A stretch of 20,390 nt of DNA. It comes from a virus. Positions 4,256 to 20,302 of this stretch are shown here, piece by piece. The notes under the pieces were generated by a model that was not told the DNA's origin, made no database searches, and saw only the letters and a list, made by a program, of their open reading frames with translations. Both the position numbers and the translations under genes were made by a program. The stretch lies in IMG/VR virus record IMGVR_UViG_3300027971_001851, positions 1 to 20,390 of that record; one strand, written 5' to 3'. Numbering within the stretch: the stretch's first letter is position 1; each line of letters opens with the position of its first letter.

Positions 4256-4612
4256 ATGGCCGCTACAAGTATAGGACTTTCTACCGTTGCCTTTGGATTA
4301 ACCGCTGAAACTGGCGTTGTTATTCAGAGCTTTTCACTCACTCAAACCGCCGAGACAACAGAAGTCTCAAAGCACGATGGCACACATTCAGCGGTTGCGT
4401 TCTCTGGCTTCAAACGGAATGTCAGCCTTTCTGGTAATTGTAGCGGTGCTGTTGCCTCCTCTGGAATTGGTCAGACCCTCGTTCTAACTGGAAATACAGC
4501 CGCAGTATCAAGCGGGACTTACTATGTCACCGACACCTCATTCACGGAAGCCTCTGATGGATTTAAGAGTTTTGACCTTTCCGCAACATCCTACACGGGG
4601 TTAAGCACCTAA
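4256..4612 (+). CDS. Tail-tube-like protein, copy 1
   Basis: A 118-residue all-beta protein with a ribosome site (AAAGGA) before the ATG. It is rich in Ser, Thr, Val, Ala and Gly and low in charge, as in small major tail proteins. It shares with the next gene the N-terminal MAAT.IG.ST..AFG, then TG.VIQS.S, a block around E.....G...AV.F...K...S..G, and a C-terminal DGF..F..SAT.Y.G. Directly followed by its paralogue and then by tail-chaperone-position genes, it sits where siphoviruses encode the major tail (tube) protein. The role is inferred from this order. Confidence 0.6.
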   Translation: MAATSIGLSTVAFGLTAETGVVIQSFSLTQTAETTEVSKHDGTHSAVAFSGFKRNVSLSGNCSGAVASSGIGQTLVLTGNTAAVSSGTYYVTDTSFTEASDGFKSFDLSATSYTGLST

Positions 4613-4617
4613 ACTTT

Positions 4618-4971
4618 ATGGCCGCAACAATCATCGGAAATAGCACAGATTTAGCCTTTGGCATTGCCTCTGCACAGACTGGAATGGTGATTCAATCCAT
4701 TTCATCTTCGGCCTCGGCTGATGCGGTTGAATTAAAGAACAAGGGCGGGGATGTGACTGCGGTTGTATTCCGCAACAAGAAAGTTACTTATTCGGTTGAG
4801 GGTGCATACACGACTTTTAGCGGAAGCGTTGGGGCGACAATCACAGTATCTAACGGAAGCAACTATGATCTTTCTGGTGCGGCTTATGTTACAGAAATCT
4901 CAAGGAATCGTAGCGCAGACAACTTTGAGACGGTATCTTTCACGGCAGTTCGATACGATGGCATAAGTTAG
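4618..4971 (+). CDS. Tail-tube-like protein, copy 2 (paralogue of the upstream gene)
   Basis: A 117-residue all-beta protein starting five bases after the previous stop. Its similarity to copy 1 is visible by eye: MAATIIGNSTDLAFG at the start, TGMVIQSISSSASADAVELK, the TAVVFRNKKVTYSVEG block and the FTAVRYDGIS ending. The 'VVF..KKVTYSVEG' element resembles the strand-loop-strand seen in small tail-tube or tube-like phage proteins. Two related tube proteins may build a heteromeric tube, or one may be a distal or neck variant. It immediately precedes the chaperone-position genes. Confidence 0.62.
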   Translation: MAATIIGNSTDLAFGIASAQTGMVIQSISSSASADAVELKNKGGDVTAVVFRNKKVTYSVEGAYTTFSGSVGATITVSNGSNYDLSGAAYVTEISRNRSADNFETVSFTAVRYDGIS

Positions 4972-4990
4972 TTTTTACCTAGAAATCCTT

Positions 4991-5377
4991 ATGCAAGAAA
5001 AAATCCTTTATACTCGCAACATTAAACTAGCCTCGGTTCTTGCCACATTTGGCATACCCTTTAGAGACAAAGAGCCGATGGCGGTAGTTGAGGATGCTGA
5101 TGATGGTAATAAGAGAAGCGTCACCTTTTTCTTTACCGATCTTCCCAATGGCCTCGGAGGGCGGTTGGTTGAGTTATGGGAGAAGGGCTGGTCAGCAATC
5201 ACAAACTATGATGACCCCCTAGCCTACTGCCGAGCCGTGCTAGAGAATCGTGAGCGTCTCCTAGACGCAATCAACAACGCCACCCCGCTAGTAAAAAAGC
5301 AGTTTGGGAAAGCTACTTTGCTTGTTAGCAAGAACGCATCCCCAGAACTACGAAAGAAACTGAGCAAATACCTATGA
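4991..5377 (+). CDS. Small protein in the tail-assembly chaperone position (possibly DUF5659-like)
   Basis: A 128-residue alpha/beta protein. Its N-terminal half (YTRNIKLASVLATFGIPF, then VTFFFTD, then LWEKGW and CRAVLENRERLLDAI) resembles the DUF5659 pattern, in which a strand 'T.dl.lAs.L...G' is followed by 'v.F.F.d' and a helical C-terminus. This is recognition by pattern and only moderately secure. The C-terminus is basic (KKQFGKATLLVSKN, RKKLSKYL). It is joined by an ATGA overlap to the next gene, which carries the frameshift signal. Its place between the tube proteins and the tape measure suggests a part in tail assembly. Confidence 0.55.
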   Translation: MQEKILYTRNIKLASVLATFGIPFRDKEPMAVVEDADDGNKRSVTFFFTDLPNGLGGRLVELWEKGWSAITNYDDPLAYCRAVLENRERLLDAINNATPLVKKQFGKATLLVSKNASPELRKKLSKYL

Positions 5378-14363: not shown

Positions 14364-14723
14364 ATGACATCAGAGCAGGGCGTGGAGAAAACCAGCGAGG
14401 AAGTTTTTACAAAGAAGCACGATCTCCATCTCACCACCTTGCAAATGGCGGCGGTCGAGTCGATGGAGAGAAAATATAAAAAGGGAGTCGTAGAAAATTG
14501 TGGAACTAAATTGTGGGAGATGCCCACTGCCCGCTTGGTTGAAGAAGCCATAGCCGAGGCGACAGATCAAATGGTATATCTCCTCACCCTACGCCAGCAA
14601 ATGCACATTGTAATGGAGCTTGCTAGGGATGGATGCACAGACGAAACATTGACAAACCCACGAGCTAGAGAGTGTTGCAATCTTATTTACACAACTCTTA
14701 CAGGCCAATCTAAACCCTTATGA
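14364..14723 (+). CDS. Helical protein, possibly MazG-like nucleotide pyrophosphohydrolase
   Basis: A 119-residue, largely helical protein. The centre has 'KYKKGVVENCGTKLWEM' followed by 'LVEEAIAEATDQMVYLLTL'. The E-E-x-x-x-E-x-x-D-type helix with a following Y-L resembles the metal-binding helix of all-alpha NTP pyrophosphohydrolases (MazG/dUTPase type), which many phages carry. The second half lacks an obvious partner motif, so this is tentative. The AAAGG before the ATG is too close to be an ideal ribosome site. The gene is joined to the phosphoesterase gene by ATGA overlap. Confidence 0.5.
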   Translation: MTSEQGVEKTSEEVFTKKHDLHLTTLQMAAVESMERKYKKGVVENCGTKLWEMPTARLVEEAIAEATDQMVYLLTLRQQMHIVMELARDGCTDETLTNPRARECCNLIYTTLTGQSKPL

Positions 14724-15460
14724 AGCCCTTAAAGTTCGTCGCTTGTGGAGACATCCACGGCGATGAACAAGACGCTCCTTCGGTGAAAGCCCTGCTCGCT
14801 TTCACGAAAGAATACAAACCCGATCTCGTAGTTTGCATCGGTGACCTCTGGGATTTTAGGGCAATCAGAAAAGGGGCGGGCGATGAGGAGCAAGCATCGA
14901 GCTTGCAAAAGGATTGGGACGCAGGGGAGGAGTTCATTCGAGAGTTCTTTAAGTTCGGCGATGAGAGAATCTTTTTAAGAGGCAACCACGATGAACGGAT
15001 TTTTGATATGGCTAGTAACAGCCGAAGCGGAGTAGCTCGTGATTATGCCAATGATGGGATTGAGAATATCGAATTGATAATGAAGGAAACCAAGGCGAGG
15101 ATGTTCCCTTATGATTCAGTCGGCGGGATTTACAAGTGTGGCTCGCTCTCATTCGCACACGGTTACGGCCACGCAATGCACTCTGCCAAACAACACAGCG
15201 ATGCCTATGGGGATGTTATCTTCGGCCACACCCACGCCATTGACTATTTCCGTAGCGTCTCGATCGACCCCCGGACTGGCTACAATATCGGATGCCTATG
15301 CAACAAGACCCCAGAATATAATCGAGGCCAACTCCGTAGACTCCGCTGGCAACACGGCTGGGCGTTTGGGGCGATCTACCCAGACAAGACACACGAAGTT
15401 TTTCAAGCAAGGCAACGAGGCAACAAGTTTTATTTACCCACGGACATAAAGGCATTTTAA
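14720..15460 (+). CDS. Calcineurin-like metallophosphoesterase
   Basis: A 246-residue protein with all the metal-binding blocks of the calcineurin-like phosphoesterase superfamily in order: GDIHG (10-14), GDLWD (41-45), GNHDE (88-92), a histidine in 'FAHGYGH' (145-151) and GHTH (169-172). These ligate two metal ions and hydrolyse phosphoester bonds. Phage members include nucleases, protein phosphatases and cyclic-nucleotide phosphodiesterases; the substrate cannot be told here. The length is normal for a stand-alone domain, and there is no signal peptide. It begins by ATGA overlap with the MazG-like gene, so the two may act together in nucleotide or nucleic-acid metabolism (inference). Confidence 0.88.
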   Translation: MKPLKFVACGDIHGDEQDAPSVKALLAFTKEYKPDLVVCIGDLWDFRAIRKGAGDEEQASSLQKDWDAGEEFIREFFKFGDERIFLRGNHDERIFDMASNSRSGVARDYANDGIENIELIMKETKARMFPYDSVGGIYKCGSLSFAHGYGHAMHSAKQHSDAYGDVIFGHTHAIDYFRSVSIDPRTGYNIGCLCNKTPEYNRGQLRRLRWQHGWAFGAIYPDKTHEVFQARQRGNKFYLPTDIKAF

Positions 15461-18946: not shown

Positions 18947-19149
18947 GCGTCAAAAGATTGAGCCTTGTTGATGAGTTTCACGGACTAGTTAGCAGAAGAT
19001 TGAAAGACTTGTTTAAGAGATTGAACCACGCAGAAGTGGAAAACTTTAAGGACATCATCAGCCACCTCGACTACTCTCATCGTATTACTAAAGAACTACT
19101 GGAACGAGCGAAGAAGTATCAGAAGCGAGATGCGGAGAAGAAAAAGTGA
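18943..19149 (+). CDS. Small basic helical protein, 68 aa
   Basis: It has ATGA overlap upstream and GTGA overlap with the initiator-like gene downstream. GGAGGAGA lies about ten bases before the start and is the strongest ribosome site in this stretch. The product is a charged, all-helical protein (LVDEFHGLVSRRLKDLFKRL, NHAEVENFKDIISHLDYSHR, KELLERAKKYQKRDAEKKK). Being coupled to the replication initiator candidate it might assist it, but no family is recognised. Confidence 0.5.
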   Translation: MSVKRLSLVDEFHGLVSRRLKDLFKRLNHAEVENFKDIISHLDYSHRITKELLERAKKYQKRDAEKKK

Positions 19150-19910
19150 AGCGAGATTCTTTCTGGTTTCCCTTTGAACCTAATCGCTGGCTTGCGAATG
19201 AGAAGCTGGCCTTGGTGAGCCTTGAGGCCAAGGGACTATGGATTCACCTATTATGCCTTATGTATAAGGCTAACGCCGGCGGGAAGCTAACGATCAACGG
19301 CAACTCCCCAAGCCCAGAGCAGATCAGTCGGATGGTTGGGCAAGATGCCAAGCCACTCCTTCAAGAGCTTGAGGTTGCAGGGGTTTATGAAATTAAAGAT
19401 GGGGCAATTTATCACGGAGGAGTGGCCTCTGGACTGGCAAAGATGGAGGAAAGATCGGCTGGATATGCTCGAAGGATAACCCATAGATGCGCCATAGATG
19501 CACCATCTATGAACCATCTATCGTCCATAGATGAACCATCTATCGTATATAATAATAGTAATAGTAAGAGTAAGAGTTATAGTAATAAGGATAACAAGAA
19601 AGAGAGAGAGGTCTTACGCCCTACGCACGCTGAATGGATTGCCTTTGCAAATGAGATCGGATGGAGGCTTACGGATGCAGAGTCGGCTTTTGATTACTAC
19701 CAGAGCAACGGATGGAAGGTTGGGGGAAGGGCATCGGTTAAGGATTGGCGAGCGTGTGCGAGAAATTGTCAGCGTAGGAGCAACCAACAACCAATGAAAG
19801 GAAATCAACCAATGAAAAAACCAATCAAGTCGGGGTGTGAATCCCCACCAACCTACAAAATTATGGGCTTTCATACGCTCGAAGCGTGGGAAAAGGCGGG
19901 TTGTCCGTGA
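19146..19910 (+). CDS. Phage replication initiator-like protein (winged-helix N-terminus)
   Basis: The GTG at 19146 overlaps the previous stop (GTGA). The 254-residue product opens with 'SFWFPFEPNRWLANEKLALV' followed by 'SLEAKGLWIHLLCLMYKANA', 'SPEQISRMVGQDAKPLLQEL' and 'VAGVYEIKDGAIY' (residues 5-90). This is the winged-helix pattern of phage replisome organiser/initiator proteins. A low-complexity polar linker (about residues 112-150; SSIDEPSIV, then NSNSKSKSYSNKD) joins it to a C-terminal region (AFDYYQSNGWKVGGRASVKD, WRACARNCQRR). The Y..Y...GW.......DW.....R.C block is typical of DnaD-like or initiator C-termini that recruit the helicase loader or helicase. The linker coincides with an 11-bp iteron array and an AT-rich tract. 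Like lambda O, the gene may carry the origin it acts on. Confidence 0.68.
   Translation: MKRDSFWFPFEPNRWLANEKLALVSLEAKGLWIHLLCLMYKANAGGKLTINGNSPSPEQISRMVGQDAKPLLQELEVAGVYEIKDGAIYHGGVASGLAKMEERSAGYARRITHRCAIDAPSMNHLSSIDEPSIVYNNSNSKSKSYSNKDNKKEREVLRPTHAEWIAFANEIGWRLTDAESAFDYYQSNGWKVGGRASVKDWRACARNCQRRSNQQPMKGNQPMKKPIKSGCESPPTYKIMGFHTLEAWEKAGCP
19481..19610 (+). other. Candidate replication origin: six 9-bp sites at 11-bp spacing plus AT-rich hexamer tract
   Basis: The 9-mers begin at 19481, 19492, 19503, 19514, 19525 and 19536, exactly 11 bp apart. They read CCATAGATG, CCATAGATG, CCATCTATG, CCATCTATC, CCATAGATG and CCATCTATC. The cores CATAGATG and CATCTATG are reverse complements, so the array mixes both orientations. 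From 19545 a TA-rich tract follows, with hexamers AATAGT, AATAGT, AAGAGT, AAGAGT, TATAGT from 19554 to 19583. An 11-bp period is not a multiple of three, so the amino-acid sequence cannot explain it. Sites once per helical turn next to easily melted DNA inside an initiator gene match a phage origin. Confidence 0.65.
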
Positions 19911-20302
19911 ACGACCTAGTTTTAGCGGCCACAATCCATCGGGTGAAGTGTTGCGAGGACAAAATTGCCCAATTTGAACAACTCATAAGCACACTCACCG
20001 CACAGATGGCTCAAAATCGCACGGAATTGGCCTCTAAAGGGCTTGCAAACCTAGTTATGGGTACAACCACCCCCCTAGACATCCCAAGGGAGTTACGGCC
20101 AACCTTCGGGCGTTATCGGGCAAGGGGAAATCGTTCCCACAATACAGTTCAGAAGCGATGGGGCATTTGGAAGGCTCAATATGAGTCGGGACTGACGGTA
20201 AAAGAGATTGCGAGCGCTTGGGGATGTCATCACTCCTCAATCGTGAACGCAAAAAGCAAAAACTTCACGGCTCGGAAGTCAAGCGGAAGGGGAATCAAAT
20301 GA
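19907..20302 (+). CDS. Helix-turn-helix protein with DnaA-domain-IV-like motif
   Basis: The GTG at 19907 gives GTGA overlap with the initiator stop; an in-frame GTG 21 bases earlier is the alternative. The 131-residue product has an N-terminal helical or coiled-coil segment (EDKIAQFEQLISTLTAQMAQ) and a basic C-terminal domain. There, 'SGLTVKEIASAWGCHHSSIV' followed by NAKSK reads as helix-turn-helix. The 'G.HHSSIVNA' element resembles the DnaA domain IV signature (RDHSTVxxA), and is also compatible with a homeodomain-like HTH. The tail is basic (KNFTARKSSGRGIK). Next to the candidate origin, it may bind the origin or regulate early genes. Confidence 0.58.
   Translation: MNDLVLAATIHRVKCCEDKIAQFEQLISTLTAQMAQNRTELASKGLANLVMGTTTPLDIPRELRPTFGRYRARGNRSHNTVQKRWGIWKAQYESGLTVKEIASAWGCHHSSIVNAKSKNFTARKSSGRGIK

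Follow-up and report, generated by a model that had tools for sequence, protein, structure and literature searches.

In phage lambda, the N- and C-terminal halves of the initiator O have separable roles. The lambda O gene carries iterons and an AT-rich tract in its middle (PMC7466680), and the four iterons are bound by O dimers (PMC5043065). In phage SPP1, the origin oriL, with direct repeats and an AT-rich unwinding region, lies within the replisome organizer gene 38 (PMC6316719). The rep gene of plasmid pSK41 likewise has its origin in the centre of the gene: the N-terminal winged helix of Rep binds the sites, the origin DNA encodes the linker, the C-terminal domain contacts the replication machinery, and both domains are DnaD-like (PMC5703833). 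In the pPR9 chimera, the N domain and the origin have been exchanged as a block (PMC5703833). DnaD, for which Bacillus subtilis oriC has a recognition element, prefers TnnT words (PMC10201434).

Here, we describe a 20,390-bp stretch of viral DNA (the window), in which an array of short sites runs into an A-rich tract in the middle of one gene. Judged from the sequences and from predicted structure, the array and the tract very probably constitute a phage replication origin that lies within the linker-coding part of its own initiator gene. An initial annotation of the window had proposed a putative origin in an initiator gene under DNA-level selection, and this proposal survives those of its suggested tests that were run, among them the search of homologues and the conservation of the site cores; the tract next to the array is, in addition, of low duplex stability.

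Six 9-bp sites at an 11-bp pitch adjoin the least stable duplex of the window

The locus comprises the following features, all on the plus strand:

19146–19910, + strand: initiator gene, open reading frame of 254 aa with a GTG start (AlphaFold model of the product, mean pLDDT 74)
19146–19910, + strand: predicted order of the protein (AlphaFold), N-terminal winged helix, disordered linker, C-terminal helical domain, tail
19179–19412, + strand: winged-helix domain, residues 12–89 (AlphaFold pLDDT mostly >90)
19437–19456, + strand: two weaker words that resemble the sites and share their 11-bp phase, GCAAAGATG at 19437 and GGAAAGATC at 19448, with similar in-phase words in relatives
19481–19544, + strand: iteron array of six 9-bp CCAT(AG/CT)AT(G/C) sites at 11-bp pitch, found in the sequence and kept in relatives
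19497–19610, + strand: disordered linker, residues 118–155 (pLDDT <50)
19545–19610, + strand: A-rich, C-poor tract, defined by duplex stability and C content
19554–19583, + strand: five hexamers, AATAGT AATAGT AAGAGT AAGAGT TATAGT, inside the tract
19626–19784, + strand: C-terminal helical domain, residues 161–213 (AlphaFold), swapped independently of the array
19886–20302, + strand: next gene, helix-turn-helix-like (HTH-like), 138 aa, with weak HTH matches and conserved downstream in relatives

The array reads CCATAGATG-CG-CCATAGATG-CA-CCATCTATG-AA-CCATCTATC-GT-CCATAGATG-AA-CCATCTATC-GT. Its sites start at 19481, 19492, 19503, 19514, 19525 and 19536, and all six fit CCAT(AG/CT)AT(G/C) exactly, in agreement with the six sites at exact 11-bp spacing of the initial annotation. 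The mixed orientation also described there holds in part: the centre, AG or CT, differs between sites, but there is no strict alternation, and every site begins with CC and ends in AT(G/C). The lag-11 self-identity of 38 of 53 positions is the strongest repeat of period 7–30 in the window, and the same type of score reached at most 32 in 200 Markov-shuffled windows. The array was chosen for analysis after it had been noticed, but as it is also the top repeat of the whole window, the choice of place does not account for the strength of the repeat. The array may start further upstream, given the words at 19437 and 19448; both words overlap conserved coding sequence, and coding alone could explain them. 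A further word, AAGGATAAC at 19472 and 19587, resembles a degenerate DnaA box and was discarded as a candidate box, as it is not preserved in relatives.

Among all 48-bp stretches of the 20,390 bp, the one from 19546 onward, adjoining the array, has the lowest duplex stability, and the 60-nt segment with the fewest C in the window starts at 19545. Duplex DNA of low stability, a mark of the origin-in-initiator-gene architecture, is thereby found next to the sites, and the tract at 19545–19610 is probably the DNA unwinding element. The AT-rich tract of five AGT-ending hexamers into which the array had been said to run is present at 19554–19583, and the hexamer number differs between relatives. 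AGT serves for all five Ser codons of the tract and for 40 of the 417 Ser codons (~10%) in the other genes of the window. We also considered a DnaA-trio reading of the tract; TAA and TAG triplets are present, but with the iterons in the role of DnaA boxes they would be on the other strand from that used in B. subtilis, and the reading was dropped. Just past the tract, a AAGAAAGAGAGAGAGG stretch at 19587–19616 is the apparent point at which N- and C-terminal modules have been exchanged between relatives.

The array and tract encode chiefly a disordered linker

In the AlphaFold model of the window protein, a long helix runs from the winged helix to residue 117, and disorder is predicted at residues 118–155, so that the array and the tract (19481–19610) encode chiefly the disordered linker. 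For the N-terminal domain, the model predicts a winged helix, which is closest to DnaD and the initiators of RepA_N plasmids. Its top four solved-structure neighbours are the RepA_N initiators 4pql, 5kbj, 4pt7 and 4pta (Z 7.5, 7.2, 7.0 and 6.8, respectively), below which rank DnaD and winged helices of a generic kind. All of these matches are of middling strength (best Z 7.5, best Foldseek E 0.29), with unrelated winged helices reaching Z 6.5 and the DnaD N-terminal domain 2vn2 standing at Z 6.3. When solved structures were searched by sequence, the matches were generic, mostly winged helices.

Family searches including Pfam (E up to 1) gave no named family for the window protein, and the families of phage replication protein O were likewise unmatched by it. 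PF09681 (Phage_rep_org_N) is matched by 13 of 63 relatives at E up to 0.05 (best 5e-5) and not by the window protein. Among the same 63 relatives, some match PHROG families of replisome organizers or replication initiation proteins, and one matches an O-like PHROG. Pfam scans did not detect the RepA_N family in the window protein (E up to 1) or in the 63 relatives (E up to 0.05).

The array is inherited together with the N-terminal domain

A scan of viral contigs yielded 71 usable relatives, most of them 44–98% identical, and scanning in turn for the C-terminal domain and for a second type of N-terminal domain added further relatives, leaving 143 ORFs after removal of duplicates. The best linker period is 11 bp in 83 of these 143 initiator ORFs and 22 bp in 13, while a best period of 12 or 14 mostly reflects a 6- or 7-bp tract 3′ of the array. 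The array at the same place in homologous initiator genes, which the initial annotation had named as a check, was found. Specifically, 58 of 60 genes with the N-terminal domain of the window (type A, window counted) carry three or more sites in a chain, L052 and L120 being the two without, and array length ranges from 3 to 9 units. Genes with the second domain (type B) provide 51 distinct arrays with other words (TGTCCAG, TGTCACG, TGTAACG) at unchanged place and pitch; three type-B genes yielded no chain. The 11-bp pitch is not universal in cultured homologues, Pam1 having CCTAATAGG words about 12 bp apart, and bacterial relatives (L213–L222) are mostly without an 11-bp array. In bacterial or prophage contigs L214, L217, L219 and L241–L248, the linker has GGGGTTAACCCC-like and GGATAA words and no 11-bp array.

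Across 113 genes, sharing of array words follows the identity of the N-terminal domain, with a partial correlation of 0.81 for N given C, versus 0.43 for C given N. In particular, L044–L046 are 98% identical to the window in the N domain and 49% in the C domain and carry the array of the window, while L060, L064–L067 and L070–L073 are 79–98% identical in the C domain and 36–39% in the N domain and carry type-B words. The array and the N-terminal domain thus travel together through swaps in both directions, and the C-terminal domain does not. The winged-helix domain (residues 12–89), which the iteron type tracks, is probably the iteron binder.

The same observations bear on a reading of the array as an operator, through which the initiator or the neighbouring HTH protein controls transcription of the replication genes, with the true origin elsewhere. 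The near-palindromic sites and the HTH-like gene directly downstream would suit an operator, but the array lies mid-gene, the stretch right after it has the lowest stability in the window, it is inherited with the initiator's own N-terminal domain, and relatives have no second array among the matches listed. Specifically, a second array elsewhere in the genome was sought in 19 relatives and rejected, each genome having one array among the matches listed and other matches lying near the control rate. We consider it unlikely that the array is an operator instead of an origin; the two roles are compatible and could coexist.

Selection acts on the DNA of the sites, and stop-codon avoidance shapes them

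The initial annotation had argued that coding needs could not produce the period. In 20,000 synonymous codon re-draws that preserve the protein, the repeat score averaged 23.8 (sd 3.4) with a maximum of 38, and at most three of the six sites ever formed, so that the re-draws fail to rebuild the array. In 25 close relatives, unit positions 1–8 are nearly invariant and positions 9–11 variable, whatever the codon position. Mean variation at third codon positions in these relatives is 0.056 in the 9-bp cores versus 0.160 in the N domain, and when third positions were drawn at random from the N and C domains, about 0.1% of draws were as conserved (P about 0.001). The proposed comparison of synonymous sites therefore comes out as expected, with third codon positions in the site cores more conserved than third positions drawn at random from the rest of the gene. 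Repeated sites are thus present within the initiator coding sequence and are conserved at the DNA level.

Because 11 is not a multiple of 3, the array passes through all three frames, the peptide differs at each unit, and the linker must read in each frame. In the distinct type-A arrays, two of the three frames can take the TAG form without harm, and 98 of the 200 units in these frames have it; in the stop frame (CCA-TAG-ATG) it is seen in 0 of 110 units, where the centres are TCT (80), AAG (27) and TCC (3). The type-B arrays have 73 GTAA words in the two frames that tolerate them and none among the 52 units of the third, 22 of which read GAAAC. In neither type are the unit counts independent events, as the sequences are related. 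An open frame lacks stops by definition, and the informative part is the nearly fixed replacement at every third unit: in almost every case, either the centre is reverse-complemented or a single set variant stands in its place. Since a TAG-form site would spell a stop in one frame, the mixed polarity is largely imposed by coding on a near-palindromic site. Sites that would place a stop in frame are swapped for tolerated forms, TAG giving way to CT (the reverse complement) or AAG, and GTAAC to GAAAC.

These data also weigh on the possibility that the repeats are a by-product of protein selection on the linker or of minisatellite-like slippage, to which the variation between relatives in array length (3 to 9 units) and in hexamer number lends some colour. 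However, the peptide changes at each unit, the pitch of 11 is not a multiple of 3, synonymous re-draws do not give the array, third positions of the site cores are conserved, and relatives have wholly different words at unchanged pitch, which makes a by-product very unlikely.

Loader genes and genome context

The C-terminal tail of the protein is short at eight loci (L027, L036, L041, L044, L048, L050, L051, L154), and in all eight a gene for an IstB/DnaC-like ATPase lies directly downstream, seven of these loader genes being recognized by pattern and that of L154 read directly, with three confirmed against Pfam. A DnaC-like loader is next door at none of 87 loci with the usual tail. The tails of L113, L115, L116, L118, L119 and L198 are variants of this usual tail, and four remoter tails are likewise without a loader. 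Among 12 relatives searched, none had a replicative helicase (DnaB_C) and only one had a loader; with no DnaB found in these 12, the phages probably use the helicase of the host, on which the later steps of initiation would then depend. Helicase or helicase-loader genes adjoin more distant homologues in the cultured phages Pam1, Bacteroides phage Versailles and one Vibrio phage.

A change of GC skew at the array, for which the initial annotation had proposed to look, was not seen in six relatives of 37–38 kb. The test says little, since skew in these genomes is positive nearly everywhere and their long ORFs are mostly on the same strand, and GC skew was dropped as an origin marker.

Integrase and ParA-type ATPase were not found in the 12 relatives searched, the records of which may be incomplete, and this suggests that the relatives are virulent, with no plasmid or prophage stage. 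Arrays of repeats about one turn long are known from ParR/parC-type systems, and the one-turn direct repeats here resemble such centromeres, but the lack of both genes in the 12 relatives, the location in the initiator gene and the low-stability tract next to the array make a centromere-like segregation site most improbable.

Other genes nearby were noted as well. In L069, a protein of the Mom family (4423–5025, Pfam E 2e-33) is encoded a little downstream of the HTH gene, which suggests DNA base modification, and some other relatives have methyltransferase-like genes at about the same place. In the window, a gene for a calcineurin-like phosphoesterase lies at 14720–15460, upstream of the replication region.

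A model for initiation and the possible meaning of the pitch

The array, the conservation of unit positions, the co-inheritance with the N domain and the frame rule are computed results, as are the low stability of the duplex and the pairing of tail type with loader gene; alongside these we infer steps of binding, melting and loading at the putative origin. N-terminal winged-helix domains would occupy the sites along a single face of the DNA, with one domain for each helical turn, and neighbouring subunits would pack into a regular nucleoprotein array. Strain in this nucleoprotein would then melt the adjoining A-rich tract, and the C-terminal domain and tail would recruit the replicative helicase, with the DnaC-like loader encoded next door in some relatives and presumably a loader of the host in others.

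A 7-bp repeat, CAGAAGC, is found in further initiator genes. An exact 24-base run of it occurs in 64 viral contigs (L249–L312), mostly mid-ORF, and 46 of its 75 match places (overlaps counted apart) lie in ORFs that match initiator N-terminal profiles. The run falls in two or more codon phases, and it looks like a DNA element common to otherwise different initiator genes. The words upstream of the run vary, and include GTTCAACGG, GGATAAGGG, CCTAATAGG and TGTCACG. We put forward, as a tentative idea that may well prove wrong, that selection keeps the pitch and not the word, with one subunit per helical turn, with any word serving that the N domain recognises and that recurs every 11 bp, and with frame edits at every third, would-be-stop word, and that the shared CAGAAGC tract is a general melting or loading signal.

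The analysis assigns a likely origin and initiator to an uncultivated freshwater phage group, in which the gene matches only PHROG families of unknown function. The many natural pairs of an initiator domain and a DNA word at fixed geometry could make a recognition code and the one-turn spacing testable. The locus is also a clean example of bases that serve at once as DNA signal and as protein code, with stop-codon avoidance visibly shaping putative binding sites.

Comparison with known initiator-gene origins

The arrangement at this locus resembles that of lambda O, where iterons and an AT-rich tract likewise lie at the centre of the initiator gene. The iterons of lambda are longer than the sites of the window, which are short and one helical turn apart, and the window protein has no O-family match. 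The analogy to lambda O drawn in the initial annotation holds for a mid-gene array and tract, but the RepA_N plan, whose initiators are the top four fold matches, is at least as near. SPP1 gene 38 shares repeats and an AT-rich region inside a phage initiator gene; SPP1 differs in having a second origin, oriR, whereas the relatives here have one array per genome among the matches listed. As for DnaD and B. subtilis oriC, the strand complementary to the tract has TnnT words, a likeness of T-rich strands that was noted by reading alone and is weak evidence.

With RepA_N plasmids, the locus shares the mid-gene position of its putative origin, the coding of the linker by that DNA, and exchange of the N domain and the sites as a block. 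Unlike pSK41, a plasmid with four Rep boxes, the genomes here are phages, in which the nine-bp sites number 3 to 9 and keep strictly to an 11-bp pitch, and neither the window protein nor the 63 relatives match the RepA_N family by sequence. In the open-access text that we searched, no paper was found that describes the 11-bp arrangement. The plan of the putative origin, inside the gene of its own initiator, is that of RepA_N, lambda O and SPP1 gp38 and is already known; what we would cautiously call new is the strict one-turn pitch across unrelated words, together with the frame-dependent editing of the sites.
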